Shown: one piece after another, positions 34,093-47,167 of the stretch
How positions within the stretch are numbered: position 1 is the first letter of the stretch
How the letters are laid out: the number at the start of each line of letters is the position of its first letter
From: Methyloversatilis discipulorum
GTDB taxonomy: Bacteria; Pseudomonadota; Gammaproteobacteria; Burkholderiales; Rhodocyclaceae
NCBI RefSeq assembly: GCF_018780585.1
Contig: NZ_JADMJL010000047.1
Coordinates: 1 to 47,322, forward strand
Length of the DNA: 47,322 nucleotides
Reading direction: 5' to 3'
Program-made: the position numbers and the translations under genes
Notes under the pieces: generated by a model
Databases searched by the model: none
What the model was told of the DNA's origin: nothing
The model's input: the letters and a program-made list of their open reading frames with translations, nothing else

Positions 34093-35931
34093 ATGCCCGA
34101 ATCACCTACCCAAGCCGGGCCGCTGTCCGTCGCAGTGCTGATCGAGGCACTGGCGGCCGATGCCGGTGACCGCGCGGCGCTGATGCGCAGCGACGGCAGC
34201 AGCCTGTCGCGCGCCGAGCTCGCCCGACGCACCCGCCTGCTGGCGCGGCGGCTCCGCGCGCTCGCCATCGCGCCGACCGACCGGGTGGCGGTGCTCGCGC
34301 CCAATGGCATCGACATGGCGCTGGCCGTGCTGGGCACGATGCGCGTCGCCGCCTGCGCGCCACTCAATCCGCAGTACGGACCGGCCGAACTGGCCTTCTA
34401 CCTCGACGACCTGGCCGCACGTGCGCTGGTCGTCACCGGCGACAGCCCGGCGCTGGCGCGCGAAATCGCGGCGCAGCGCGGTCTGCCGGTGATCGAGGCG
34501 GGCGAAGCGCTGTGGGCGACCGGCGACGCGCCGCTGCCGCCGACACCGGTGTCCGACGACATCGCGCTGGTGCTGCACACCTCGGGCACCACCTCGCGTC
34601 CGAAGCAGGTGCCGCTGAGCCACGCCAACCTCGCCGCGTCGATGGCCCACATCGTCGCCGCGCTACAACTCGGCGCTGACGACTGCGCACTGAACGCGAT
34701 GCCGCTGTTCCACATCCACGGTCTGGTCGCCGGCCTGCTGGCGCCGCTGGCCGCCGGCGGCCGCACCATGTGCGCACCGGCACTGCGCCTGCCCGACTTC
34801 TTCGACTGGCTGGATGCCTGCGGCGCCACCTGGTATTCGGCGGTACCGACCATGCACCAGGCCCTGCTCGCCGCCGCCGACGGACGCCGGCCCCAACGCC
34901 CGCTGCGCTTCGTGCGCTCGTCGTCGGCGGCGCTGGCGCCGGCCACGCTGGCCGCACTCGAAGCGCACTTCGGCTGTCCGGTGATCGAAGCCTACGGCAT
35001 GACCGAGGCGGCGCACCAGATGGCCAGCAACCCGCTGCCGCCGGCCGTGCGCAAGCCCGGTTCGGTCGGTCTGCCGGCCGGCCCGGAAATCGCTGTTATC
35101 GACGCCGCCGGTGCGCTGCTGGCCACTGGCACGCGCGGCGAGATCGCCATCCGCGGCGCCAACGTGATGCGCGCCTACCACGCCAACCCGGAGGCCAACC
35201 GCAGCGCCTTCAGCCACGGCTGGTTCCGCACCGGCGACGAAGGCTATGTCGACGTCGATGGCTATCTGCACATCACCGGACGGCTGAAGGAAATGATCAA
35301 CCGCGGCGGCGAGAAGATCACGCCGCGCGAAATCGACGAGGCGCTGCTCGCTCACCCCGACGTCGCCCAGGCAGTCGCCTTCGCGGTGCCGCACCCGACG
35401 CTGGGCGAGGACGTCGCCGCCGCCGTCGTGCCGCGGCCGGGCAGCACCATCGGTCCGGAGGCCCTGCGCGCATTCCTGTTCGACCGGCTGGCCGACTTCA
35501 AGGTACCGAGCGAGGTGCTGCTGCTGGCCGAAATTCCGAAGGGACCGACCGGCAAGGTGCAGCGCATCGGTCTGGCCGAAAGACTGCAGGCGCTGCGCAC
35601 GCCGGACTTCGTCGCGCCGCGCGACGTGGTCGAGGACATCCTCGTCCAGTGCTGGCAGGAAGTGCTGGGCGGCGACATCGGCGTGCACGACAACTTCTTC
35701 GCGCTCGGCGGCGACTCGCTGAAAGCCACCCGCGTGGTCGCCCGCATCGTGTCGGTACTGCCGGTCGATCTGCCGACTGCGCTGCTGTTCCGCCACCCGA
35801 CAGTCGCCACCCTCGCCGACGCGGTACGGCAGACACTGGACCCGTCGGTGATCGCCGAAATCGAATGCATCCTCGACGAACTGGCGCCGCTGCCCGCAGC
35901 CGGCGACGAACAGGATGCGCGCCCCGTCTGA
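34093..35931 (+). CDS. Oxalyl-CoA-synthetase-like adenylation domain fused to a carrier domain
   Basis: The 612-residue two-domain protein activates a carboxylic acid. Residues 1-500 form an ANL ligase with the P-loop HTSGTTSRPKQVPLSH (162-177), MPLFHIHGLVAGLL and EAYGMTEAAHQM (299-310), then PPAVRKPGSVG. The last two are hallmarks of the AAE3/Pcs60 oxalate-CoA ligases rather than of amino-acid A domains. The catalytic Lys is 488 (GPTGKVQRI). Residues about 515-595 are a peptidyl carrier domain with Ser542 in LGGDSLKAT. Free-standing oxalate-CoA ligases lack a carrier, so the fused domain implies that the acyl group is held as a thioester for the NRPS. The substrate is inferred to be oxalate or a related small diacid. 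The next gene overlaps its end by 17 bp. Confidence 0.88.
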   Translation: MPESPTQAGPLSVAVLIEALAADAGDRAALMRSDGSSLSRAELARRTRLLARRLRALAIAPTDRVAVLAPNGIDMALAVLGTMRVAACAPLNPQYGPAELAFYLDDLAARALVVTGDSPALAREIAAQRGLPVIEAGEALWATGDAPLPPTPVSDDIALVLHTSGTTSRPKQVPLSHANLAASMAHIVAALQLGADDCALNAMPLFHIHGLVAGLLAPLAAGGRTMCAPALRLPDFFDWLDACGATWYSAVPTMHQALLAAADGRRPQRPLRFVRSSSAALAPATLAALEAHFGCPVIEAYGMTEAAHQMASNPLPPAVRKPGSVGLPAGPEIAVIDAAGALLATGTRGEIAIRGANVMRAYHANPEANRSAFSHGWFRTGDEGYVDVDGYLHITGRLKEMINRGGEKITPREIDEALLAHPDVAQAVAFAVPHPTLGEDVAAAVVPRPGSTIGPEALRAFLFDRLADFKVPSEVLLLAEIPKGPTGKVQRIGLAERLQALRTPDFVAPRDVVEDILVQCWQEVLGGDIGVHDNFFALGGDSLKATRVVARIVSVLPVDLPTALLFRHPTVATLADAVRQTLDPSVIAEIECILDELAPLPAAGDEQDARPV

Positions 35932-46470: not shown

Positions 46471-47167
46471 CGGTACACCCGCGCTGGCGGTCGACGAGGT
46501 CCATCTGTGGCTGGCGCGGGTGGACGACGCGCCGCCGACCGACACGCTCGCCACCTGGCTCGACGATGCCGAACGCGTCCGCCTTGCCCGCTTGCAGCGC
46601 GAAGAGGACCGCGCACTGTTCGCACTCGCACACGCGTCGCTGCGCGACGTGCTGGCGCGCAGCCTTGGCATCGCCGCGCGCAGCGTGCAGATCGACTGCG
46701 ACGCGCACGGCAAGCCCCGTCTCGCCGCCGTCCACGCCAGCGATCTCTGCTTCAACCTGGCGCACGCCGGCCGGGCGGTACTGATAGGCATCGCCCGCGG
46801 CCGCGAACTCGGCGTAGACATCGAAGCCGTGATCGCGCACGACGACCTGCGCGCGGTGGCGGAACAGGTGTACTCGGCGGACGAGAGAGCGGCGCTCGAC
46901 CTCTGCCCGGCAGCAGCGCGCACCGATCTGTTCTACACGCTGTGGACGCGCAAGGAAGCCTGCCTGAAAGCCTGGGGCTGCGGCCTCGACGGCCCGCTGC
47001 AGCAGTTCAGCGTGCACGCCGCCGCGTACGACGACGTCGCCGCTCCGGCCGGCAGTGCCTTACCGCCACTGCACTGCCGCGACCTGCCGGCGCCGCCGGG
47101 TCATGTCGCGGCGATCGCCGTCAGCGGAGGACCAACGACGGCGGTGTGCAGGCGCTGGCACGCTTAG
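46445..47167 (+). CDS. Sfp-type 4'-phosphopantetheinyl transferase
   Basis: The 240-residue PPTase has the motifs GVDIEAV and FYTLWTRKEACLKAWG, which hold the Mg-binding acidic residues, plus FNLAHAGRAVLIGIA upstream of the first. It transfers phosphopantetheine from CoA to the Ser residues of carrier domains, here presumably Ser542 of the adenylation-carrier protein and Ser1020, Ser1611 and Ser2652 of the NRPS. It overlaps the NRPS end by 26 bp, so it is coupled to it. An ATG at 46454 is an alternative start. Confidence 0.93.
   Translation: MSSMPPLTDGTPALAVDEVHLWLARVDDAPPTDTLATWLDDAERVRLARLQREEDRALFALAHASLRDVLARSLGIAARSVQIDCDAHGKPRLAAVHASDLCFNLAHAGRAVLIGIARGRELGVDIEAVIAHDDLRAVAEQVYSADERAALDLCPAAARTDLFYTLWTRKEACLKAWGCGLDGPLQQFSVHAAAYDDVAAPAGSALPPLHCRDLPAPPGHVAAIAVSGGPTTAVCRRWHA

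Follow-up and report, generated by a model that had tools for sequence, protein, structure and literature searches.

A candidate oxalate-loading starter unit with a divergent thiamine diphosphate enzyme in a small nonribosomal peptide synthetase cluster of Methyloversatilis discipulorum

Comparison with described systems

A four-gene cluster in Methyloversatilis discipulorum (assembly GCF_018780585.1, contig NZ_JADMJL010000047.1) encodes an acid-AMP ligase fused to a carrier domain, a thiamine diphosphate (ThDP) enzyme, a nonribosomal peptide synthetase (NRPS), and a 4'-phosphopantetheinyl transferase (PPTase). The window analyzed is the entire contig (G000:C64, 47,322 bases) of a 4.56-Mb assembly, and it ends 155 bp beyond the last stop codon of the cluster. 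The closest described systems are enzymes of oxalate and one-carbon acyl metabolism. The oxalyl-coenzyme A (CoA) synthetases AAE3 and Pcs60 of plants and yeast are the nearest solved relatives of the ligase and have the FHxHG and TEAxHxM blocks in common with it, but the cluster ligase is fused to a carrier and heads an NRPS. Oxalyl-CoA decarboxylase (Oxc) shares the ThDP fold and tree branch of the cluster enzyme, which is likewise expected to act on an oxalyl thioester; in contrast to Oxc, the cluster enzyme has Gln in place of the activating Glu and is without Y120/E121, Y483, S553, and the C-terminal lid. The 2-hydroxyacyl-CoA lyases and synthases (HACL and HACS) are nearest in sequence and fold and share the Phe at the position of Oxc Tyr120, whereas the cluster enzyme lacks their activating Glu and lid, and the HACL Gln (Q113 in RuHACL) occurs in one of the six members of its subfamily. 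The activating Glu is also missing in glyoxylate carboligase (Gcl), as described in the relevant passages of PMC3534367. However, Gcl has Val where the cluster enzyme has Gln, is distant in sequence (1e-22), and acts on free glyoxylate. Finally, the formylation module of the linear gramicidin synthetase LgrA, in which a formyltransferase domain performs the formylation, may have a formyl-capped NRPS peptide as a common outcome with this cluster, although Pfam analysis of the four cluster proteins found no formyltransferase domain. A search of open PubMed Central (PMC) text, which leaves out most subscription papers and all natural-product databases, gave no description of an NRPS of this type among the papers listed, and the passages of PMC10681181 that name Methyloversatilis merely list it among NRPS-bearing bins.

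The balance of evidence leans modestly toward a small NRPS whose starter unit is loaded with oxalate, which a second enzyme then modifies while it is bound to the carrier. If so, oxalate would be an NRPS starter and one-carbon acyl chemistry would be shifted from CoA to a carrier protein, where it could provide a useful part for biosynthetic engineering.

The ligase-carrier protein

The genes occupy four open reading frames (ORFs) on the + strand, at 34093-35931, 35915-37606, 37636-46470, and 46445-47167, with overlaps of 17 and 26 bp and one gap of 29 bp, which confirms the gene content, single orientation, and spacing given in the preliminary description. The features of the first two genes, with their basis, are:

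34093..35592, + strand: AAE3/Pcs60-like acid-AMP ligase domain (residues 1-500), proposed to activate oxalate; Pfam, solved-sequence matches, alignment
35638..35826, + strand: carrier domain (PP-binding, residues 516-578; motif LGGDSL) fused to the ligase; Pfam, alignment
35915..37606, + strand: ThDP enzyme, a distinct subfamily of the Oxc/HACL branch; Pfam, NCBIfam, sequence and fold matches, tree, model
35915..36022, + strand: extension of two predicted helices (6-19 and 23-36) at the N terminus of the ThDP enzyme, a possible docking element; model, with a weak basis for docking
36164..36166, + strand: codon for Gln84 (motif RHQQ), at the site of the Glu that activates ThDP; alignment

The ligase ORF has Pfam matches to AMP-binding, AMP-binding_C, and PP-binding. 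Its three best matches among distinct solved sequences are oxalate-CoA ligases from plants and yeast, 5ie0 (4.7e-121), 6qjz (7.2e-117), and 8aff (4.7e-100); the next different family, LgrA, follows after a clear gap (1e-84), with a match that extends over the carrier too. FHxHG and TEAxHxM are common to known oxalate ligases, and their His and Ser are presumably the oxalate binders. Of the ligases aligned, all 16 free-standing ones and 11 of the 13 fused ones have both blocks, as do all seven fused copies within the genus. In the ligase tree, the 13 aligned fused proteins form one clade (support 0.998) nested among free bacterial ligases.

The fused ligase-carrier is present in 7 of 13 genus genomes, and a free-standing ligase of the same family without a carrier (52-54% identity) in 12 of 13, G007 being the exception. 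In the genome of the window, the free AAE3-like ligase heads the row ligase-TctC-TctB-TctA-PanE (L044:3993-9813, on G000:C7); the reductase matched the PanE-family model NF005089 (463 bits), and the TctC-, TctB-, and TctA-like genes were named by eye, with no NCBIfam match for TctA or TctC. The PanE-like family includes oxalyl-CoA reductases, and this row is likely a route for oxalate uptake and oxalyl-CoA reduction. A PanE-like reductase lies at most six genes from the free-standing ligase in 13 of 16 loci (immediately adjacent in 11), with none within that distance at G1087, G838, and G796; these loci were sampled from 44 others ahead of viewing their neighbors, but not at random. In the pertinent passages of PMC7486775 and PMC8411744, PanE2/ApbA2 enzymes operate between oxalyl-CoA and glyoxylate. 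Oxalate loading is a well-supported prediction because of the closeness to AAE3/Pcs60 and the PanE-like neighbors of the free relatives, and oxalate is, with good confidence, the most likely substrate of the fused ligase, in keeping with its earlier description as AAE3/Pcs60-like; no assay of these ligases came up in the literature.

The ThDP enzyme

The second ORF has Pfam matches to TPP_enzyme_N/M/C. Its nearest sequences and folds are HACS and HACL, followed by Oxc: in a structure model based on a 25-sequence alignment (mean predicted local distance difference test, pLDDT, 86.2), the first 13 Foldseek rows were HACS/HACL, with template modeling (TM) scores on the query of 0.84-0.86. A shallower AF2 model (6 sequences, pLDDT 62.7) was dropped in favor of this one. 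In the tree, the ThDP subfamily is a separate branch, whose sister group holds Oxc and one HACL-like enzyme (0.931). The protein falls below both NCBIfam Oxc cut-offs (273.6 of 557 and 240.2 of 739.4 bits), and no Oxc model reached its cut-off in any of the 13 genus genomes. The enzyme shares the branch of Oxc but is no ordinary Oxc, and the Oxc step as first written is unsupported, given these scores and the loss of the Glu and of the Oxc residues in all six subfamily members.

The cofactor motif GD...NN is intact in 6/6 members, and the ratio of nonsynonymous to synonymous substitution rates (dN/dS) is 0.17-0.33 in 10/10 pairs; the gene is under purifying selection. Past the last strand, the tail comprises 7-10 residues in all six members versus 17-35 in 11 other enzymes, so the C-terminal lid over CoA is gone, a loss that fits a substrate bound to a carrier better than one bound to CoA. 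The N-terminal lengths in that comparison came from stop-to-stop frames and were disregarded. At position 148, the HACL Gln site, Gln is found in one of the six members.

Proposed pathway and alternative explanations

In the proposed pathway, the PPTase would arm the carriers, as enzymes of this family do, and the AAE3-like ligase, judging from sequence and gene context, would form oxalyl-AMP and transfer oxalate onto its own fused carrier. The divergent ThDP enzyme would then attack the thioester carbonyl, with loss of CO2 leaving a one-carbon acyl carbanion on the carrier thioester. This carbanion could be protonated to formyl-S-carrier or could add to an aldehyde to give a 2-hydroxyacyl-S-carrier in the fashion of Gcl and HACS. 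The first condensation domain would couple the starter acyl to residue 1 of the peptide, which is Gln according to the A-domain code, and Val and the thioesterase would end the chain. The preliminary description had offered the hydroxyacyl product, formed by carboligation, as an alternative to formyl; the two outcomes now carry about equal weight because the Oxc residues and lid are gone, an engineered Oxc carboligase provides a precedent, and Gcl is a carboligase without the Glu. The precedent, MeOXC4, is changed at E135, A415, Y497, and S568 according to the section of PMC8411744 that describes it, and all four of these positions differ from Oxc in the ThDP subfamily.

Several observations weigh against an oxalate-loading unit with an active starter-editing enzyme. 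That the fused ligase is specific for oxalate is itself inferred; among its aligned fused relatives, the ligase of G702 is without both blocks and that of G814 without the second (TEAxHxM). At the activating-Glu position, all six ThDP subfamily members have Gln (RHQQ; Gln84 in the protein of the window), compared with Glu in 31/31 other homologues, a set picked mostly by likeness; the cited passages of PMC3534367 give Glu for 94% of the superfamily and Val for Gcl. The oxalyl-contact residues of Oxc named in the relevant part of PMC8760513, Y120, E121, Y483, and S553, correspond in 6/6 members to Phe, Thr/Met/Gln, Ser/Ala, and no residue (the C terminus being missing), respectively, and an Oxc variant that combines A415C with changes at three of these sites keeps <0.2% of its decarboxylation efficiency and is now a carboligase, as reported in the portion of PMC8411744 concerned. 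Given the Gln and the four lost Oxc residues, neither decarboxylase nor carboligase activity of the enzyme is assured. For the N-terminal extension, likeness to NRPS N-termini is weak (3/18 pairs at ≤24/2000 shuffles), and a docking role is possible. Moreover, ligase-carriers with NRPS domains occur without an adjoining ThDP gene in G004 and G007 within the genus, and in G419b, G494, G739, G702, and G814 outside it.

Among the roles open to the ThDP enzyme, carboligation is one tentative candidate: a carrier-bound one-carbon carbanion, derived from oxalyl- or formyl-S-carrier, would be joined to an aldehyde, and a 2-hydroxyacyl starter would result, as in Gcl or HACS. HACS and HACL are nearest in sequence and fold, the four MeOXC4 positions known from the cited excerpt are all non-Oxc here, and Gcl, in the passages cited the family with Glu replaced throughout, is a carboligase. 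Yet the HACL-like Gln at residue 148 is present in one member only, the cluster has no gene for an acceptor aldehyde, and no report of Gln working in place of Glu was met, although no search was aimed at that. The fuller proposal, that a ThDP carboligase acts on an NRPS carrier to provide an oxalate-derived 2-hydroxyacyl start with Gln replacing the activating Glu, is put forward with corresponding reserve. If the carboligase were real, Gln would join the Val of Gcl as another natural means of dispensing with the activating Glu; its fixation in a branch under purifying selection makes Glu-less ThDP activation directly testable, and species with and without the gene are a ready natural comparison. 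A true oxalyl-S-carrier decarboxylase, yielding an N-formyl peptide, is held just as tentatively as that fuller proposal: the shared branch with Oxc (0.931), the oxalate-type ligase, and the lack of a Pfam formyltransferase domain in the four proteins favor it, but the absence of Y120, E121, Y483, S553, and the activating Glu in 6/6 members and the scores below the Oxc model cut-offs do not.

Somewhat more doubtful is that the ligase loads another small acid (e.g., malonate, glyoxylate, or a hydroxy acid), with the ThDP enzyme acting there or on a free 2-oxo acid. Adenylating enzymes are generally known to shift specificity easily and the motif is changed in 2/13 aligned fused ligases, but the three nearest solved sequences belong to oxalate ligases, and none of the seven genus copies has lost either block. 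Clearly improbable is a weak or noncatalytic accessory protein whose catalysis was lost with the Glu. The Gln at that position and two species that retain the rest of the cluster without the ThDP gene are consistent with such a role, whereas the GD...NN motif in 6/6 members, the dN/dS of 0.17-0.33, and the retention of RHQQ across families at 40% identity speak against it.

Distribution and loss of the ThDP gene

The preliminary description had proposed co-occurrence of the gene quartet as a check, and the grouping did recur: G010, G001, and G012 carry the whole quartet, the ligase and ThDP genes lie at a contig end in G009, and the ligase/ThDP pair recurs in a second family. Given this recurrence, the four-gene grouping is more than chance. 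The ThDP gene was found in 5 of 13 genus genomes, and the same five are the only carriers among 395 sampled family genomes (one of 68 genera). Among the readable loci of an order-level sample (330 genomes), it was present only in the window genome and in G419, which belongs to a different family and whose protein (40% identity) keeps RHQQ; 22 lesser matches were obtained there, of which all 13 fetched carry Glu and nine were not fetched. In a phylum-level sample (369 genomes), the window genome alone passed 1e-112. A pattern scan of named genomes, which may omit records near the window, gave one close relative, from a Methyloversatilis metagenome-assembled genome, and two distant ones with Glu. 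In 6/6 members, spanning two families, the ThDP gene lies directly 3' of the ligase-carrier gene.

In G419 (L088:5380-7899), the ThDP gene is followed, before the contig end, by a condensation domain in fusion with a dioxygenase, identified by eye as TauD-like, so that the editing unit is also present in a different type of assembly line. A different arrangement is seen in the large genome G814 (L094:8422-14880), where a single 2152-residue protein combines ligase, carrier, condensation, adenylation, carrier, and condensation domains, with a PPTase-like gene nearby. Its adenylation code is VIWEITADD; a code read from its N-terminal ligase was ignored, as this is not an amino-acid domain. Similar long open frames are present in G887, G934, G1117, G1133, and G973.

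Remains of the ThDP gene were detected in G007, where the ligase-NRPS interval encodes, each in a different frame, one piece matching residues 9-33 and another matching the final 17 residues of the ThDP protein of the window (0/5000 shuffles as good for each piece). Against the G012, G009, and G419 proteins, 0, 5, and 1037 of 5000 shuffles, respectively, were as good for the N-terminal piece and 0/5000 each for the C-terminal piece. The two matching ends imply that the gene was once present and that its middle was lost. The ligase, NRPS (2994 residues), and PPTase frames of G007 are all still open, and ligase dN/dS is 0.20-0.45 in six pairs. No relic was found in G004, in which 12 bases separate ligase and NRPS. 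In the ligase tree, G004 stands beside the window group (0.838) and G007 beside G012/G009 (0.713), so that two separate losses would be the simplest story, the supports being modest. Because G007 and G004 keep the ligase and NRPS without the ThDP gene, the ThDP step is probably a modification of the starter that the line can run without; in these two genomes the oxalyl group itself would be used, giving an oxamoyl-type cap.

NRPS architecture and predicted peptide

The NRPS (2944 residues) has the order C-A1-T-A2-T-C-A3-T-TE, where C, A, T, and TE denote condensation, adenylation, carrier, and thioesterase domains; Pfam assigned 3 AMP-binding, 2 Condensation, 3 PP-binding, and 1 Thioesterase domains. 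The features of the third and fourth genes are:

37798..39030, + strand: condensation domain 1, HHxxxDG present; Pfam, alignment
39106..40560, + strand: A1, code DAWQFGLID, predicted Gln; code by alignment
40606..40815, + strand: carrier domain 1; Pfam
40846..42321, + strand: A2, code DVGDFGMID, in a module without a C domain; code by alignment
42376..42600, + strand: carrier domain 2; Pfam
42631..43905, + strand: condensation domain 2; Pfam
43981..45450, + strand: A3, code DAFWLGGTF, predicted Val; code by alignment
45496..45705, + strand: carrier domain 3; Pfam
45751..46455, + strand: thioesterase domain; Pfam
46445..47167, + strand: 4'-phosphopantetheinyl transferase, alternative start ATG at 46454; Pfam ACPS

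C, A, carrier, and TE domains are thus united in one protein with the C-domain HHxxxDG motif, and the fourth gene encodes an Sfp-type PPTase (ACPS, 64.4 bits against a cut-off of 25). The three A domains and thioesterase first described are borne out; a correction is that the protein has two C domains only, since module 2 lacks one and does not follow the pattern of one C domain per elongation module. Module 2 of G010, G001, and G007 likewise has no C domain; that of G004 has one. A C-domain search of the whole assembly (E ≤ 0.001) returned only the two NRPS domains; with no further C domain found in the genome, one of the two must serve twice or a residue must be skipped.

The A-domain codes suggest Gln for A1 and Val for A3: DAWQFGLID is listed as Gln in the table of PMC2866473 and DAFWLGGTF as Val in that of PMC9113097, while DVGDFGMID (A2) had no match in the literature searched. 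The same three kinds of A domain occur in G007 and G004 as X-Gln-Val, and G012 has X-Val. The G007 NRPS has a window-like C-domain layout with reordered A domains, and the G004 layout is complete. Within each NRPS of G012 (L027-L028) and G007 (L040-L041), C1 and C2 are nearly identical, as would be expected after a recent gene conversion or duplication. Because of this near-identity, the C-domain tree is silent on starter specificity, and C-domain type was set aside as a clue to it.

Cluster boundaries and neighboring genes

The cluster seems to comprise four genes with nothing cut off by the contig end, since the genes beyond the PPTase in G010 and G001, both single-contig genomes, do not look biosynthetic, as judged by eye and by likeness to cluster domains. 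Genes in the comparison genomes were called with a simple in-house script instead of a standard gene finder, and in G012 and G007 it probably placed the starts too far downstream. On the other side, a radical SAM protein, whose B12-binding match is weak and below the cut-off, is encoded on the opposite strand (31963-33855); its gene adjoins the ligase gene in G010, G001, G012, and G009 and is one gene off in G007, whereas none was observed in the vicinity of the G004 ligase. With no link to peptide synthesis found and an inconsistent neighborhood, it was dropped as a cluster member. Farther away, positions 15080-20113 of the window hold glutamine-synthetase-like and sarcosine-oxidase-alpha/GCV_T-like genes, which we take to be reminiscent of the N-methylglutamate pathway of methylamine use.

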